Of a stretch of DNA of 64,000 nucleotides, positions 1,174 to 52,436 are shown piece by piece. The stretch comes from a virus. The notes under the pieces were generated by a model. The model searched no databases. It had not been told where the DNA came from and saw only the letters and a program-made list of their open reading frames with translations. A program made the translations under genes and the position numbers. Position 1 is the stretch's first letter. Every line of letters starts with the position of its first letter. The stretch is from the IMG/VR virus record IMGVR_UViG_3300031957_002643, positions 248,001 through 312,000 of that record. The stretch is one strand, 5' to 3'.

Positions 1174-1201
1174 GATTCAACGTGCTAGGAGGTAATACAC
1201 T

Positions 1202-1762
1202 ATGAATCGCACTCTGCTTGTAATCGGCGCTGTTGTTGGCGTCACTGCTATCACCATGGTTGGTGGATACATCGGCACCTACACTTATGCTGTCGAGACC
1301 GAAGAAGAAATTCGGGCTGTATACGAGAACAATGAAAACGTTCTGGGACAGTTCTATCAAGAAGTGAACGAAAGCTCACAAGTCGTGCAGCAATTCACTT
1401 CCGACTACCGCGATGTCATGACGGACATCGTTCAAGGTCGATATGGTGATGATGGCATTCGAGGGCTGGCAACGTGGATCAATGAATCCGGCGTCGAACT
1501 CGATCCCCAACTGTATACCGATCTTCAACAGGTCATCACACGTGGTCGAAATGATTTTCGTGACAATCAGACGCGCCTGATCGATCTTCGTCGTCAGTAT
1601 GCTACGCATCAGCGTGGCTTCTGGAACCGAATGTTCTATTCCATGATGGCCGAACCGACATTCGACCTCGATACGGAATATCTTCCGATCCGTGTTCGCG
1701 AAGCTTCCGAAGTCTTCGACTCCGGTATCGAAGAAGAACGCCAGATTTTCAATCGAAATTAA
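1202..1762 (+). CDS. LemA-like membrane protein
   Basis: 186 aa with one N-terminal membrane segment (residues 4-27, LLVIGAVVGVTAITMVGGYI) followed by a long helical domain, the layout of the LemA family. It starts at ATG 1202 with an excellent GGAGG site and follows the TPM-like gene by 28 nt, so the two are surely one operon. LemA proteins are membrane-anchored helical bundles of unclear function. Length and topology fit; the signature motifs are weak, so the name leans on the neighbour. A strong hairpin terminator follows. Confidence 0.5.
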   Translation: MNRTLLVIGAVVGVTAITMVGGYIGTYTYAVETEEEIRAVYENNENVLGQFYQEVNESSQVVQQFTSDYRDVMTDIVQGRYGDDGIRGLATWINESGVELDPQLYTDLQQVITRGRNDFRDNQTRLIDLRRQYATHQRGFWNRMFYSMMAEPTFDLDTEYLPIRVREASEVFDSGIEEERQIFNRN

Positions 1763-2931: not shown

Positions 2932-3019
2932 GGAAGGGTGGCTGAGTGGCTTAAAGCGGCGGTCTTGAAAACCGTTGAACCGAAAGGTTCCGGGGGTTCG
3001 AATCCCTCCCCTTCCGCCA
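2932..3019 (+). tRNA. tRNA-Ser(TGA)
   Basis: Acceptor GGAAGGG/CCCTTCC, discriminator G, encoded CCA, anticodon loop CTTGAAA (TGA), class II variable arm. It lies 4 nt behind tRNA-Cys, so the two are co-transcribed. Confidence 0.94.
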
Positions 3020-3032
3020 AAATCTCATCGAT

Positions 3033-6866: not shown

Positions 6867-6942
6867 GGCCCCGTAGCTCAGCGGTTAGAGCAGATGCCTC
6901 TAAAACATTTGGTCGTGGGTTCGAATCCCACCGGGGCCACCA
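6867..6942 (+). tRNA. tRNA-Arg(TCT)
   Basis: Acceptor GGCCCCG/CGGGGCC, discriminator A, encoded CCA, anticodon loop CTCTAAA (TCT). The pair next to the anticodon loop is a C-A mismatch. Confidence 0.9.
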
Positions 6943-7708: not shown

Positions 7709-8298
7709 TGTGTAAGGATTATACGAAACTCAAGTCTCTTGACGAACTTGGCTGTGCGATGATGAAATGTCAGCAGACCAAGACACAGGATGTGTTGGAA
7801 CACGGTTATTCCATTCACAATTACTTCCGCGATCTTAAAGATCACATTCTTTATGGTTCGGAACTGCAATACGAATGGAAACTACCGGATTGGATTTATG
7901 AAGAAAATCTCTGGGACCAACTTTTGGATTACCAGACGATCCGATCCTATCACATCTATCATGATTGTGGTAAGCCGTTCTGTCGATACGTTGACGATGA
8001 GGGAAGACAGCACTTCCCAAACCATGAAACCATCTCTGGCCAAGTGTGGCGACACATTGGGGGTGATGAGCAAATCGCTCGGTTGATGGAAATGGATATG
8101 GATATTCATCGCCTTCGTACTGATGGTGTTGAAGAATTCGCGTCCAGACCGGAAGCGGCAACCCTTTTGATCACTGGTTTGTGTGAAATCAATTCGAACG
8201 CTCGAATGTTCGGCGGTATTCATTCTACCAGTTTCAAAATCAAATATAAAAATTTGGCCAAGTATGGTGGTCGAATTGCTGAACGTCTTTGTGCGTAA
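7708..8298 (+). CDS. HD-domain-like hydrolase
   Basis: 196 aa. IYHDCGKPFCR at about residue 87 matches the HD...GK motif of HD phosphohydrolases, with further His residues (HFPNHETISGQVW) spaced as metal ligands. Substrate unknown; HD enzymes act on nucleotides or 2',3'-cyclic/oligonucleotides. ATG overlaps the PTH2 stop (TAATG), so the two products are made together, and a tRNA- or nucleotide-linked role is an inference. Confidence 0.6.
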   Translation: MCKDYTKLKSLDELGCAMMKCQQTKTQDVLEHGYSIHNYFRDLKDHILYGSELQYEWKLPDWIYEENLWDQLLDYQTIRSYHIYHDCGKPFCRYVDDEGRQHFPNHETISGQVWRHIGGDEQIARLMEMDMDIHRLRTDGVEEFASRPEAATLLITGLCEINSNARMFGGIHSTSFKIKYKNLAKYGGRIAERLCA

Positions 8299-8300
8299 CT

Positions 8301-8330
8301 GGAAAGCCCTCAGAAATGGGGGCTTTTCTT
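8301..8330 (+). terminator. Rho-independent terminator
   Basis: GAAAGCCC/GGGCTTTTC hairpin followed by TTTTATT, right behind the HD gene. Confidence 0.75.
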
Positions 8331-8381
8331 TTATTCCCAATTGATGTAAGTATTCATGGAGAGAATAAATGGAGGAACAAA

Positions 8382-30195: not shown

Positions 30196-30249
30196 TTTCC
30201 TTCTCCTTTACGTCTTTTGTGAACTAAGGATTAGGACGAGTCAAGAGGG

Positions 30250-30318
30250 TTGAATGAACATGTTAGTTGCGGTGGGTGTTTCATCGAAAAAGATAACCCA
30301 TTGCATCCGGCTCATTCA
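30250..30318 (-). repeat. Direct repeat R2, proximal to the Ro gene
   Basis: About 68 nt, matching R1 (30656-30724). The plus-strand core TTGAATGAACATGTTAGTTG is identical in both, as are AGATAACCCA and GCATCCGGCTCATTC. On the RNA strand TGGGT can pair with ACCCA, and GATGAA with TTCATT; both pairings also exist in R1. A repeated structured leader element is likely. Confidence 0.7.
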
Positions 30319-30327
30319 AATTTCATA

Positions 30328-30497
30328 CAGTTGTACCTTAGAAGGATGGACGTGTTTTTGAAAAACGACGTTTAGACGCTCTAACCGTTGAGCTACCGGC
30401 CCATAAATGGTGGGCCAGACAGGATTCGAACCTGTAACCTTCCCTTTGTAAGAGGATAACCGTCTCTCAGCCGGTCCATCCTTCTAAGATACAACTG
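30328..30497 (-). ncRNA. Y-RNA-like gene 2 with permuted tRNA mimic
   Basis: A 24-bp stem, perfect apart from one G-U, joins 30474-30497 and 30328-30351. Inside, in RNA order, come: an anticodon-stem-like helix (AGACG with CGTCT), an extra hairpin (TCCT-CTTACAA-AGGGA), a T arm (ACAGG-TTCGAAT-CCTGT), an acceptor-like hairpin CTGGCCC-ACCATTTAT-GGGCCGG, and a D arm GCTC-AACGGTTA-GAGC. So 3' and 5' tRNA halves are in swapped order and the acceptor is closed by a loop that still carries ACCA. This is the layout known for bacterial YrlA-type Y RNAs, whose tRNA-like module is circularly permuted. Position between promoter and Ro gene supports it. Confidence 0.8.
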
Positions 30498-30631
30498 GAC
30501 GAATGTGTTTGCGACTAGGGGGTGTTGAGACCAATGCTTCTACCAATTCAGCCACACCCAACAATGTGTTGAGTGACAGGATTCGAACCTGCACTTCTCG
30601 GTTTTGATAACCCTATGTCTCCGACTCGTCC
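30497..30631 (-). ncRNA. Y-RNA-like gene 1 with permuted tRNA mimic
   Basis: Second unit, directly upstream. Outer stem GGACGA/TCGTCC (30626-30631 with 30497-30502), then GAGAC/GTCTC, hairpin GGTT-ATCAA-AACC, T arm GCAGG-TTCGAAT-CCTGT, acceptor-like hairpin CACTCAAC-ACATT-GTTGGGTG (8 bp), and a D-like arm GGCTGAATTGGTAGAAGC. Same permuted order as gene 2 but different sequence and a shorter outer stem. The loop lacks CCA. Confidence 0.72.
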
Positions 30632-30655
30632 GAAATCTTTTGTTCCTCCCATTGA

Positions 30656-30724
30656 TTGAATGAACATGTTAGTTGTGATGGATGTTCATCATTACCAAGA
30701 TAACCCACCGCATCCGGCTCATTC
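30656..30724 (-). repeat. Direct repeat R1, upstream of Y-RNA-like gene 1
   Basis: Partner of R2, about 406 bp away. On the RNA strand TGGGT pairs with ATCCA (G-U where R2 has G-C) and ATGAACAT with ATGTTCAT, so the structure is kept while bases change. Confidence 0.7.
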
Positions 30725-30734
30725 GTTGTTCCGT

Positions 30735-30766
30735 GATATACTTATAGAGGATAATAGGGGTGTCAA
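30735..30766 (-). promoter_or_regulatory. Promoter of the Y-RNA/Ro/PTH2 transcript
   Basis: Minus-strand TTGACA (30761-30766). TATAAG follows 14 nt later (30741-30746) and AAGTAT at 17 nt, so the exact -10 is uncertain. Confidence 0.55.
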
Positions 30767-47381: not shown

Positions 47382-48181
47382 TGTTCTGGATTGTTCAAGA
47401 AGATTTGTACAATGAGTACAAGTATGACGAATTCCTCAATGCTCTTGATCGTATGAATATCGATCACGTATTGGTGAAGCCGATTCCATTTACAAACACG
47501 CTCGTGAACGAAGATGAAATCCATATCGATGATTCTCAGCCGATTATTGTTTCGGGTTCTGTCTCATTAGTTCGTGTCGCCAGACGCCGTGGTTGGTTGC
47601 CGGGAAGTTTCCATGACCACGATTTCTTTTTTCAAGAGTGGCGAGATGGATTTGGAAAAGACAATTGTCTAAACGGGCATGCCAAAATCGTAAAGCTCAA
47701 AGATGCGACATTCAATGGTCATGATATCTTTGTTCGACCGATTTTGGATAACAAGTCCTTTTCTGGTGTAGTCATGAATCGAGAAGAATTTATGTCGTGG
47801 CAATCGCATTATGCGTATGTCGAAAGAACGGATGAATTTCAAACACTACATCAAGATACCGAAATCATGATGTGTCGGCCTAAGAACATCATGGCTGAAT
47901 ATCGATTTTTTGTCGCAGATGGAAAAGTTGTCACTGGCAGTCTTTATGTTCGTGGTCGTCGCGTTGTCTATGAAGAATGCCATGAAGAAGATGTTATCGA
48001 GTTCACGCAATCAATGGTAGATAAATTTCAACCAGCTAAAGCGTTTGTGTTGGACGTTGCAAGAATCGATGGTGGATTCAAAATTATCGAAGTGAACAAT
48101 TTCAATTCTGCGGGCTTTTATGCATGTGATGTCGTCAAGATAATTAATGCAGTAGAAGAAATGACTGAATTTTATTCTTGA
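47381..48181 (+). CDS. ATP-grasp (R2K-type) protein
   Basis: 266 aa. HDIFVRPILDNKSFSGVVM, ITAEYRFF-like MAEYRFFVADGKVVTGSLY and DVARIDGGFKIIEVNNFNSA are the ATP- and metal-binding blocks of the R2K clade of ATP-grasp ligases, known from phages and polyvalent proteins. They likely join a carboxylate to an amine on a peptide or small molecule; partner unknown. Last gene of the paralogue operon. Confidence 0.8.
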   Translation: MFWIVQEDLYNEYKYDEFLNALDRMNIDHVLVKPIPFTNTLVNEDEIHIDDSQPIIVSGSVSLVRVARRRGWLPGSFHDHDFFFQEWRDGFGKDNCLNGHAKIVKLKDATFNGHDIFVRPILDNKSFSGVVMNREEFMSWQSHYAYVERTDEFQTLHQDTEIMMCRPKNIMAEYRFFVADGKVVTGSLYVRGRRVVYEECHEEDVIEFTQSMVDKFQPAKAFVLDVARIDGGFKIIEVNNFNSAGFYACDVVKIINAVEEMTEFYS

Positions 48182-48206
48182 CGAGAATATAACTACCGTA
48201 TATAAG
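48178..48206 (+). promoter_or_regulatory. sigma70-like promoter of the structured-RNA locus
   Basis: TTGACG (48178-48183), 17 nt, TATAAG (48201-48206), overlapping the stop of the ATP-grasp gene. Confidence 0.82.
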
Positions 48207-48247: not shown

Positions 48248-48391
48248 ATGGCAAAGAAGACGAATGCATCGAATGCAAGCAATCGGCGTGATCCGGTGAA
48301 GAAGCGTACTTCCATCGGCAATTCTACTCGTTCGCGTCCGACGAACAAGCATTCGACGTTCAAGCGTACTCGCGGGCAGGGTCGTCCGTAA
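48248..48391 (+). CDS. Tiny, highly basic protein
   Basis: 47 aa, rich in Arg/Lys/Ser/Thr/Asn (NRRDPVKKRTSIGNSTRSRP, ending KRTRGQGRP) and with no hydrophobic core. GGAG site 7 nt ahead of ATG 48248 and its own promoter. Looks like an unstructured nucleic-acid binder. The only coding gene between the ATP-grasp gene and the long structured region, so an RNA partner role is a reasonable guess. Confidence 0.65.
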   Translation: MAKKTNASNASNRRDPVKKRTSIGNSTRSRPTNKHSTFKRTRGQGRP

Positions 48392-48785
48392 GAGTTAAGG
48401 GAAACTAGGCGTCTGGCCAAGAGGACGTAGGGTCAATCCGCCCAAGCGAAGCGCGAGATACCCGATAAGCTCAGTGTAGACATGATTAGATCGCTGCAAT
48501 GTTCGTGTCGTCGGTCTAGTGGAACTTTGCTGGTGGTAGGCGATAAAAAATCCTACCTGACAAGGATACAAGCAAAACGAACGTATATCGGTTTTGTCGT
48601 CGGTCAGGTACCATCAGTTAATACAGTTTGGTAGCAGAGCGCGGAATGGAATGCCTTTCGCGGGGTAAGGGCAGCGGAGTAATTGACCGCCAGCTAAATC
48701 CCCTCAAGCACCGGGCGCGAAGGACGAGAACAGAGACTCGTTAAGTGACAGTTTAGCACCTGATCCTACCAATCCAATTTTCTTC
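48392..48785 (+). ncRNA. Structured RNA region A
   Basis: About 390 nt directly behind the tiny basic gene, with no ORF. Helices visible: CCTACCTGAC with GTCAGGTA, CAAAACGA with TCGGTTTTG nested inside, GTAGG/CCTAC, and ACGAG/CTCGT near 48723-48741. A motif GCGAAGGACGAGA...AGAGACTCG (48716-48740) recurs in region B. Not tmRNA, RNase P or 6S by their known motifs. Confidence 0.55.
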
Positions 48786-48814
48786 TTGACTTATATCACT
48801 GGTACGTATATAAG
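48786..48814 (+). promoter_or_regulatory. sigma70-like promoter for region B
   Basis: TTGACT (48786-48791), 17 nt, TATAAG (48809-48814). Confidence 0.82.
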
Positions 48815-48873
48815 TAAGAACACAGTCGGCAACAAAGATCGACAAGAAAACTGACAAATACTGAAAAAACTTC

Positions 48874-48902
48874 TTGACTTTTGTTTGTGTGTCCTATATA
48901 AA
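48874..48902 (+). promoter_or_regulatory. Second sigma70-like promoter for region B
   Basis: TTGACT (48874-48879), 17 nt, TATAAA (48897-48902). Tandem strong promoters with no gene behind them for 3 kb. Confidence 0.85.
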
Positions 48903-49298
48903 GGTTACAACGAAAGTTGCTCTTTGACATTGTTGGGAAATAAGTGAGACGAACCGATCTTCACGGGTCCATCGGACCTTTGATTAGCATGTATCTCTAT
49001 TGTTCTGCCTTAACAGACCTGTTCTTTACCGGGCAGAATGGTGCGAAGACGAGAGTAGAGACTCGATCCTTAGACTTGATGTGGAGTTTGCAAGCTGCCA
49101 CGAGATAAGGACAAACTCTGATGGCCCCTTGAAGGTCGGTTCGTTGGCAAAGCGTTGATCCGGGCGTGTAGATGGTGTGGACACCATACCGGATAACCCT
49201 TTAATAATCGCCTGACTTAAATATCGGGCTAACCCAGAAAGAAAACACTCCTAAAGAAATAAGGCGTAGTGTTCCTTCCGAGGCGATTAACAAGTTTT

Positions 49299-49374
49299 GC
49301 GGGATGATGGTGTAATGGAAACACGGTCTACAGTAGTAGGACATCTAGTAAGGTTCAATTCCTTACCCCTCGCA
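49299..49374 (+). other. tRNA-like module 1 within region B
   Basis: Acceptor-like TGCGGG/CCTCGCA, D-like arm GGTGTAATGGAAACAC, hairpin GTC-TAC-AGTA-GTA-GGAC with a bulged G, and T arm GTAAGG-TTCAATT-CCTTAC. No proper anticodon loop and no CCA. Mimic or decayed tRNA. Confidence 0.5.
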
Positions 49375-49902
49375 TTTGAGAATTTGCATCTGACCCTGTT
49401 TTGGCTTGGTGACCGATAGCGCTAAGACCACCGCGTGTGGAGAAAAGGCGTGTGTAGGAGCTTCGTCTGAAACTGTGGCGACACGGCACTTTAAAGCCGG
49501 TGATGTAATGTGGATGGGCGTTTTTGGAAGCCACGATCCACCGCGTTGCAACTGAGAGCACATAAAGCCGACAGTACATCGGTAAAAGTGCAGCCCCAAA
49601 GGCCACGGGGAACCGAAAACATCTTCCGCAACGGTTTCTATAAGATGTGATCGGGCAGCGCGTTAAATCTTTATCTAGTTGATAGACTAATTGAAAGAGT
49701 GAAAGTACTTTCGAGAAAGTGGAACCTCTGCATCGATGAACTCATCTGAAATACCAATTGTAACAATCGCAAATGCTATAAAAACCGTGAGCAAGGAGAA
49801 TGGCCTTGACAGGCAATTGGTAGGAAGGATGTTTAGTAGTCGATATATGCGAAGCGAAGTGTAGAAGGTATGGAAACTTTAGTAAGGGGAAGTCGCCCGG
49901 AC

Positions 49903-49957
49903 AGCAGTTGCGATTTAAACCGGGAAATATTGGTTCGATTCCAATGAAACTAGGCCT
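49903..49957 (+). other. Half-tRNA-like module (anticodon stem plus T arm)
   Basis: CCCGG/CCGGG stem with a 19-nt loop, then a short linker and a canonical T arm ATTGG-TTCGATT-CCAAT. No matching 5' acceptor or D arm found upstream. Confidence 0.45.
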
Positions 49958-50079
49958 CATTTGTGCGAATGCACACAACATAATCCGTGAGCAAGTGCTG
50001 GTTCGGGACGTGATACTAGTTAGTCACTGAACCTGTAAAATAAAGGCACCGATCCTTTCGAGGTGGACGCCACGACCTG

Positions 50080-50154
50080 ACCGGCTGGTGTATGATAGGA
50101 AACACGCCCCTATTAACGGGGAATACGGTAGATGCAAGTTCTGCCCGGTCCAAT
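50080..50154 (+). other. tRNA-like module 2 within region B
   Basis: GACCGG/CCGGTC acceptor-like stem, D-like arm GTGTATGATAGGAAACAC (very like module 1), CCCC-TATTAAC-GGGG hairpin, and a T-like arm GGTAGA-TGCAAGT-TCTGCC, then CA. Cloverleaf-shaped but lacks U33 and the normal T loop. Confidence 0.5.
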
Positions 50155-51661
50155 AAATTCCTCTATCATGAGGATATGTAATTGCAGTAACGCCGATTAT
50201 GGTGATCGAACCTTACTGTAATAAATCCCGTTCATACCGGGTAAAAGGCCTAACCAGCCAGTATGACCGCATCGTGACTAGTGTAAAGCCCACATCTGAT
50301 TCGAACGGGTGTGTGGATAAAAGAAGCACGTCCCTCTTCGATAGGGCAAGTGTCGGTTGCAAGTCCGCCGCACGATGCAACAGGTTTTGGTGAGCAGTTG
50401 GTTTTGAAACCTTCGGAATGCCGACAGTCGTAGTAGCGCACGGCCACCACATTTGTTCTACTTAGGACCGACAAAACGATTGATCCCCATAATCTTTCGT
50501 ACAAAACGGTCGCCTACTGATGGAGTAGGAGAATTCGGATCATGAAGCCCACGAAAAGGGTGGATTGTTTCGGAGTATAGCAATCCGGGGCTTGATCTCT
50601 CCGGGGAACAATAGACTGGTGTGGAAATGCAGATATCTCAGCAGGGGACATCAATGCGCCATGTAAAAGGATGCGCGCTCCTGACCAGTTGAGTTCCGAA
50701 TTAAAACCATCGTTCGCCAGATGCATATGGCCAATCTTGGGAGAACACGTGCTGTGTCGCGGTGATTGCAGTAAATAATACGTGAGGTAAAAGTCCTAAC
50801 AACGCCGCGTCGTTTCAAAGAATGCGGTTCCTAGCACATTTGTGGAGTGGATAGGAGCAAAAGCCTGATGCCCATGACAAAGTTCTCTTTGCCCATCAGG
50901 AAATAGCATTTGGGGACTACCGGGAGAGTTCGGTGCTACATACGAGTCCAGACCGTGATGGTATGTTTTCCGAGATAAGCAAAGAAAACATGAAGGCCTC
51001 CATCATGGAACAGCGTACAGATGTCCTTTTTGTCTAAATGGCAGGGTTGATGCTTATCGTCTAATGTCGTGGCCGATTAGGACCTGAAATCGTATGTATT
51101 CTCGTGACGATGATGTAACCGTTAAGACACATCTTCGTTTATTGCATGCACAATGGTGGGAAGATCGGTTCTGTCAGACCGTGATTTGCCAGAGATGCTT
51201 GCTGCGAGAATGAAACTTGAAGTTCCTACATGCCCTGATGGCGAAGCCGGTAGGATTAAATTAGTTGGATGCGCTCAGCTTCAAGTTTCAAAGTTCCGCT
51301 AGTGCACATGCGGAAGCAAGTGTGTGAAGGTATCCGTCAAACGTAAAAGTTTTGGTCCCCTTCTGACCTGTATAAACTAAGACGCCAGAACACAACGTAA
51401 CAGGAGTTGTTTTGGCCATGGGTTAGCTACCATGACTTTGAGCGTCACCACACTTGCACAAGTTTTAGCTGCCACCATCGTATGGTTCGGACAGCCTATT
51501 GAATGAAATAGGAATAAGCAGTGATTGATCTGAAAGCCGTGATGATCAAATTAATAGAATCTGTGAACGAGTAAATGAAGCAAAAGTCATCAGGAGTGAT
51601 CATTACTGGTGGTGAGTAGTGAAACTGAAAGGGAACAAGGAGATCAAGCAGGGAGCAGGTC

Positions 51662-51716
51662 CACAACCTTTAGGGCGTCCGTGGAATTAGAGGTTCGAGT
51701 CCTCTTTTGGTCTATA
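51662..51716 (+). other. Second half-tRNA-like module
   Basis: TCCAC/GTGGA stem with a 16-nt loop, a short linker, then a canonical T arm AGAGG-TTCGAGT-CCTCT. Same plan as the module at 49903. Confidence 0.45.
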
Positions 51717-51826
51717 TTCCGGTTGCCGGGAATGAAATACTCGCCCCTGTTGTAAAGGGAAATGAGATAGCTGATCGCTTGATGCCTTGGCGGGTGGATG
51801 GTGTGATGTACGTGGCATTAAAGTTT

Positions 51827-51877
51827 CAGGACGTTCTTTTGTCGTTCTCTCCCCGATTAAAACGAGAGAACGTCCTG
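51827..51877 (+). promoter_or_regulatory. Mutually exclusive hairpins at the end of region B
   Basis: AGAACGTCCTG (51867-51877) can pair with CAGGACGTTCT (51827-51837, 11 bp), while GAGAGAAC (51864-51871) can instead pair with GTTCTCTC (51844-51851). The two helices share bases, as in a terminator/antiterminator pair or switch. Confidence 0.5.
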
Positions 51878-52031
51878 CATCCATATCAGGGAAAGGAGAT
51901 CATAACCGGGTCGGTACAAAGGAATGATCTCTGGTAGTGAGGATGGTAGTCCGATTAACCCCATGGACATTGCCCCCTGATCGTTATAACTCACTTATTT
52001 TCCAACAATGCATTCCTAGAGGAATAAACCA

Positions 52032-52436
52032 ATGGACATCTGGATCAAACACGACCTTTCACATGCACGTATCAAAAAGACCGAATCTTGGAATTATGAA
52101 CAGGATTGCGTTAATGGTATGTTGACGCCCGGTGATACTTTGTACGGTGTTCAACTTATTACATACGCATATGATTCATTTGGAAAATCAAAAGAGCCAT
52201 CAAAAACATGGCTTTATTTGACTGGTGATCCTACCGATCTTCTTGACTTAATCGATGAGATCGATGAATATCTGTCTTCTTATTCCGAAGATGAGTTGAA
52301 CCAATCCCAATTCGAGTATATCAATCTTGAAACTAAAAAGTTCAAGTTTCGCGATTCGGATAGATATATTGGAGATTTCAAGGGATGGGGCACATCGTAT
52401 GATTCTGTGAATATAAAGATTATCCCCGTTCTATAA
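52032..52436 (+). CDS. Hypothetical acidic protein
   Basis: 134 aa, unrecognised; helical acidic middle (DPTDLLDLIDEIDEYLSSYS) between beta-rich ends. AGAGGA site at ATG 52032. Confidence 0.68.
   Translation: MDIWIKHDLSHARIKKTESWNYEQDCVNGMLTPGDTLYGVQLITYAYDSFGKSKEPSKTWLYLTGDPTDLLDLIDEIDEYLSSYSEDELNQSQFEYINLETKKFKFRDSDRYIGDFKGWGTSYDSVNIKIIPVL

Follow-up and report, generated by a model that had tools for sequence, protein, structure and literature searches.

Results

A proposed pre-rRNA-like unit in a jumbo phage genome

A gene-free stretch in the genome of a jumbo phage appears, on balance, to be a transcription unit built like a bacterial pre-rRNA, which would yield one non-coding RNA of ~3.1 kb that is closed end to end. 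At the level of sequence, there is good support for reading this stretch as a stable-RNA unit that is non-coding and follows strong promoters. Its non-coding character, the identity of its boxA, an end-to-end helix, a first hairpin, a conserved structured module, and tRNA-like elements that lie on one strand can all be read from the DNA.

The 64-kb window analyzed here corresponds to bases 248001-312000 of a 335,552-base virus record. The phage encodes rIIA/rIIB, a nicotinamide phosphoribosyltransferase, an ATP-grasp R2K protein, and a protein with a poly(A) polymerase/CCA-adding head domain; no NusB or RtcB gene was found in the record. A tRNA model gives ~41 strong matches genome-wide, and a tRNA with a CTA anticodon (amber suppressor type) is located at 6867-6942 of the window. 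The nearest IMG/VR relative is the 101-kb contig IMGVR_UViG_3300010368_000009 (labels L002, L003, and L229), in which synteny is kept with ~70% nucleotide identity in genes. Nothing close besides this sister phage was returned by protein-based searches for relatives, and a DNA similarity search of isolate phages and plasmids gave no matches. Most homologues of the ATP-grasp gene among isolates belong to large phages, including many alphaproteobacterial ones, and the host of the jumbo phage is probably an alphaproteobacterium.

Extent, coding potential, and promoters of the stretch

The original prediction placed the region at 48392-51960. The gene-free stretch is real, and its limits are redrawn here to about 48,909-52,010. 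The first ~400 nt of the earlier interval (48392-48785) lack support as RNA, with no helix above chance; considered as a second RNA, this segment also showed no homology to L002 11519-11952 and was rejected. The proposed absence of a supported ORF holds: the longest ORF within 48392-52020 is 84 aa, and the longest ORF in 97% of dinucleotide shuffles is at least as long. For the larger ORFs of the region, Pfam returned nothing and no PHROG match had an E value below 0.029. Recoded frames (TAG or TGA read through) were mostly antisense or mutually overlapping and were discarded.

The anticipated tandem promoters, two of one style, were located by inspection, and a third similar one lies 5' of a gene for a small protein. 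The following features flank or lead the unit.

48178-48206, + strand: promoter of similar style, ahead of the small basic protein gene
48248..48391, + strand: small basic protein gene, 47 aa, 5' of the boxA unit here and in L002
48786..48814, + strand: promoter-like TTGACT-N17-TATAAG, by sequence; shares direct repeat D1 with the second promoter
48874..48902, + strand: promoter-like TTGACT-N17-TATAAA, by sequence and direct repeat D1; expected start near 48909
48918..48935, + strand: rrn-type boxA TGCTCTTTGACATTGTTG, an exact copy of the Alphaproteobacteria rrn leader boxA
52032..52436, + strand: next gene, 134 aa, unknown, with by-eye homology to L002 10813-11217
52573-52587, + strand: terminator-like hairpin behind the 134-aa gene, the first on this strand after the unit

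The tandem promoters were omitted by a strict consensus scan because that scan requires a T at the last -10 position. A promoter of similar style precedes boxA in L002, L006, L008, L009, L010, and L011. At the other end, the 134-aa gene probably shares a transcript with the upstream RNA unit. The L002 homologue of the small basic protein (8213-8359) is immediately ahead of the L002 boxA unit, and relatives of this protein (KRTSIGNS...RGQGR), which has no PHROGs or Pfam assignment, are encoded on 488 viral contigs. Its use as a marker of boxA units was abandoned after none of 80 loci examined from these contigs had a boxA nearby.

The same boxA leads rRNA operons and phage RNA loci

Three features that the first reading of the DNA overlooked, namely the boxA, the end-to-end helix, and the conserved module, were all found on follow-up. 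The boxA directly follows the second promoter, with the expected RNA start ~9 bases 5' of it, and is an exact alphaproteobacterial 18-mer whose copy at 48918-48935 is the sole perfect one in the 335-kb genome. When this 18-mer was scanned against 84,980 bacterial and archaeal species genomes, the matches were chiefly in Alphaproteobacteria (Microvirga, Jiella, Tritonibacter, and others) and often at contig ends, as expected for rRNA repeats. In every locus where a 16S start was found, it lies 184-371 nt downstream. A minority of matches belong to other phyla and do not adjoin 16S.

Within IMG/VR, the 18-mer is present in 11 contigs, in most of which a TTGAC...TATA-type promoter is followed by the boxA and then by RNA. 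It stands ahead of GOLLD with tRNAs in L006, leads tRNA arrays in L009, L010, L011, and L014, and precedes an RNA unit shorter than that of the window in the sister phage (L002/L003). An ORF-poor stretch with no Rfam match follows it in L008 and L012 and possibly in L013, an uncertain case where an ORF overlaps the boxA; these three are possible candidates for further large phage RNAs. In L005 and L007, the 18-mer is next to or inside ORFs. In addition, GCTCTTTGACA was observed upstream of the tRNA-GOLLD-tmRNA cluster in the GOLLD isolates DSS3_MAL1 and Phaeobacter phage MD18, both Roseobacter phages; it was not found upstream of this cluster in Phosso or BL57.

L006, boxA 3006-3023 and GOLLD 1177-1643, minus strand: rrn-type boxA upstream of a GOLLD/tRNA cluster of an alphaproteobacterial phage
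L215 2548 and L216 1610: rrn-type boxA ahead of the GOLLD/tRNA clusters of alphaproteobacterial phages

In the jumbo relative G011, a site resembling boxA lies inside an ORF and was attributed to chance. A literature search, mostly outside subscription journals, found no description of boxA ahead of large phage RNAs. Two further observations were made at these loci. A group I intron is located just behind boxA in L010 (9806-9999, minus strand), apparently within a tRNA-Leu gene, and MD18 carries a two-piece alphaproteobacterial tmRNA gene (L216 4702-5117) that is absent from the annotation of its record.

A 21-pair helix frames the gene-free stretch

An unbiased search for long helices in the region, scored against shuffles, returned exactly two helices above every shuffle (shuffle maximum 40).

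48928..48948, + strand: leader arm of the end-to-end helix, pairing with 51990-52010; score 51.0-55.0, where shuffles reach at most 40 and 34
51990..52010, + strand: trailer arm of the end-to-end helix, pairing with 48928-48948
48949..49144, + strand: first domain, a long imperfect hairpin with arms 48949-48976 and 49117-49144

The best helix joins 48948-48976 to 49117-49145 (score 57.5 versus at most 40 in shuffles), and the end-to-end pair joins 48928-48959 to 51979-52010 (51.0 versus at most 40). The end-to-end helix has 21 pairs, beyond all shuffles and above the 17 bp that leader-trailer helices of rrn-type units exceed. Its leader arm takes in the base of boxA, and 21 nt separate the end of its trailer arm from the next start codon; the helix frames exactly the gene-free stretch. 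Covariation is not available for this helix because the body has no alignable relative.

The proposal of dense nested structure along the whole length was not borne out: other complementarity is at chance level, and the folding energy is not above chance. For 250-nt windows of the region, the mean folding z is -0.55, weaker than that of windows elsewhere in the phage (-1.38), and a 16S control gave about -0.9; because this control is also weak, the folding-energy test has low power and says little either way.

The sister phage has a leader of similar layout. In L002, the order is small basic protein, promoter, boxB-like hairpin, boxA, long hairpin, and 1.5 kb of RNA-like sequence. The hairpin after boxA has the same place and a similar size as the first domain in the window and scores 51.0 versus at most 38.5 in shuffles. 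The L002 RNA has no end helix; one tRNA-like match in it is clear, at 33 bits and with a 12-nt loop, and several T-arm fragments are also present. Homology between the whole RNAs was rejected (Smith-Waterman score of 36, below the shuffle maximum of 47), and a common motif seen by eye (49584-49616 and L002 8796-8827) was dropped as not significant. Because the boxA unit is before the ATP-grasp gene in L002 and after it in the window, the small protein and boxA unit appear to behave as a block that moved, with sequence changed past alignment.

tRNA-like elements and a covarying module lie in the body

The prediction of several tRNA-like arms was upheld, as three of the four strict + strand T-arms outside tRNA genes in the 64 kb fall in the region. 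A tRNA covariance model, built from tRNAs of the window phage and its sister and run unfiltered, gave four + strand matches with E values of 0.0007-0.014 for the region, or 0.01 to 0.2 for the full 64 kb. On the minus strand of the region, nothing better than E 2.2 was obtained.

49299..49375, + strand: tRNA-like element; model match 49301-49370, E 0.0007, and relaxed aragorn
49873..49953, + strand: tRNA-like element with a 19-nt anticodon loop; model match, E 0.014
50078..50152, + strand: tRNA-like element of 75 nt with a variant T-loop; model match 50079-50151, E 0.005
51641..51713, + strand: tRNA-like element with no normal anticodon loop; model match 51642-51713, E 0.0014
51213..51287, + strand: structured 75-nt module, common to L002 and L223

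The first element has a D-arm, a T-arm, and GTA at the anticodon place, with A instead of U at position 33. By eye, none of the four has a normal anticodon loop (16-19-nt loops or A at position 33), and their scores are far below those of real tRNAs. No complete tRNA gene was found between 46016 and 53138 with ARAGORN or Rfam, and the stretch thus does not qualify as a tRNA array. Introns inside tRNAs (aragorn -i) were tried and rejected, and a descriptor search found no permuted tRNAs within the giant RNA.

In two other phages, the 75-nt module stands by itself next to tRNA genes, after tRNA-Met in L002 and between tRNA-Gly and tRNA-Leu in L223. Each of its 11 pairs forms in the window, L002, and L223 alike, and four pairs are changed on both sides (compensatory), a result that comes from three sequences from which the structure itself was read; when the partner was slid by 1 to 3 columns as a control, pairing was at most 45%. 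The module pattern is present in six contigs; judged by eye and by context, L223 is the only true relative besides the sister, and the other four are chance matches. Of the elements in the unit, only this module has relatives that show covariation.

Comparison with known RNAs

The region has no match at gathering score or E<=5 to any Rfam family (Rfam 15, 4227 families), and the suggested covariance check against GOLLD and ROOL gave no match with the Rfam models. The 3' domain of GOLLD (RF02032) is absent at E<=5, and the window region gave no match to an HMM built on five GOLLDs of alphaproteobacterial phages. For ROOL, the same Rfam 15 result applies, its model being taken as among the 4227 families. 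An rRNA gene was rejected for lack of a match to rRNA models. By these tests, the window unit is not GOLLD, ROOL, rRNA, or a tRNA array.

Likenesses to each of these systems are nevertheless seen. GOLLD is also a large non-coding phage RNA near tRNA genes, and it stands behind boxA in L006, DSS3_MAL1, and MD18; the window unit differs in missing the conserved 3' domain and in having an end-to-end helix with boxA. Many GOLLD RNAs are >800 nt (PMC12286853), versus ~3.1 kb for the window unit. ROOL is a large phage RNA near tRNA islands, with an abundance equal to that of 16S rRNA in one strain (PMC12286853); it is ~660 nt, whereas the window unit is far longer and has no Rfam match. The boxA-led phage tRNA arrays (L009, L010, L011, and L014) share the promoter and the same 18-mer followed by stable RNA; they hold complete tRNAs, whereas the window unit has only decoding-incompetent tRNA-like elements. 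Bacterial rrn operons share the boxA, a leader arm just behind it, a leader-trailer helix of >17 bp, and a stable-RNA body of 1.5-3 kb, and the pre-rRNA order of promoter, boxA, leader arm, body, and trailer arm is matched. In pre-16S, boxA and a leader-trailer helix of >17 bp act together (PMC10250234). Unlike an rrn operon, the window unit is phage-encoded, lacks rRNA similarity, and carries tRNA-like elements unable to decode. It would be pre-rRNA-like in its leader and ends and, in kind, would belong with the large phage RNAs as a new, far larger variant.

Proposed mechanism and alternative readings

Transcription of the unit would begin near 48909 and would be strong. In the nascent RNA, the boxA is predicted to recruit the host NusB/S10 antitermination complex, and this loading would spare a 3-kb untranslated RNA from Rho termination. 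As in pre-rRNA, the leader arm may be held near the polymerase until the trailer emerges; the two arms would then pair co-transcriptionally into the 21-pair helix, which would join the two ends of the RNA and probably mark a processing site. Because the first terminator-like hairpin lies beyond the next gene, we infer that the 3' end is made by processing, as in rRNA. The body would present tRNA-like elbows unable to decode and at least one module common to other phages. Judged from its kind, the molecule may be a structural phage RNA made in abundance, in the manner of GOLLD or ROOL.

Between one 3-kb RNA and a string of several, both raised in the original prediction, the end-to-end helix together with the boxA favors a single RNA of ~3.1 kb. 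This reading draws support from the exact rrn boxA after a promoter, from the same boxA before GOLLD, tRNA arrays, and the sister RNA, from the restriction of the tRNA-like elements to the + strand, from the first hairpin that is matched in the sister, and from the covarying module. It is weakened by a folding energy not above chance, a body without an alignable relative, a sister RNA without the end helix, and the free-standing occurrence of the module.

The main rival, which we regard as rather unlikely, is a polycistronic stable-RNA operon, in which a precursor with boxA and end helix is cut into several small RNAs as in tRNA arrays. The string alternative has partial support because the module is free-standing beside tRNA genes in L002 and L223; the same boxA leads phage tRNA arrays, and the tRNA-like elements are scattered. 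Such an operon, however, has no need of a leader-trailer helix that spans 3 kb, and the unit holds no complete tRNA though the phage has ~41 elsewhere. An improbable reading is a relic, that is, a decayed tRNA operon with a leftover boxA. Elements with no normal anticodon loops and with scores well under those of real tRNAs, and a body not conserved in the sister phage, would fit decay; yet the promoter and boxA are kept in both phages, and decay would erase the 21-pair end helix and the covarying module that the window retains. Very improbable is the absence of any RNA gene, with the stretch instead holding small proteins that went unrecognised or a DNA element, for example an origin: short ORFs occur in every frame, but shuffles give longer ones, no family match is convincing, and boxA and T-arms act as RNA and lie on one strand.

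Taken in its full form, the single-RNA reading is put forward more tentatively: an rRNA-sized molecule of ~3.1 kb with host antitermination and leader-trailer design, a fold around tRNA-like elbows, and rRNA-like amounts, exceeding every known phage structural RNA in size and belonging to a wider boxA-led set. If true, this RNA would surpass all other phage non-coding RNAs by a wide margin, being several times the size of any known phage RNA. A possible general rule is that phages copy the host rrn boxA to make long untranslated RNAs despite Rho, which fits several boxA-led phage loci, GOLLD included. The boxA could also be used as a simple sequence marker in searches for new giant phage RNAs.

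A second non-coding unit with permuted tRNA-like elements

A separate non-coding unit was observed elsewhere in the window, with a counterpart in the sister phage.

Window 30240-30745, minus strand: second non-coding unit; long helices enclose two circularly permuted tRNA-like elements
L229 10230-10735, minus strand: sister counterpart with the same layout

Each element has the order T-arm, acceptor hairpin, and D-arm, and the fold z of the unit is -5.0 in the window and -3.4 in L229. Order and fold are kept in the sister, while the sequences differ with compensating changes: the acceptor is CTGGCCC-ACCATTTAT-GGGCCGG in the window versus CAGGTCG-TTCG-CGGCTTG in L229, and the long helix around the elements differs entirely in sequence between the two. 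Algae and archaea are known to have permuted tRNA genes, and a literature search found no paper on such genes in phages. The permuted-tRNA descriptor (T-arm, short acceptor hairpin, D-arm) also matches L004 16986 (Tunturiibacter phage Tunturi_5, + strand) and L011 727 (minus strand), and in one of these two matches the acceptor is Watson-Crick paired at 7 of 7 positions.
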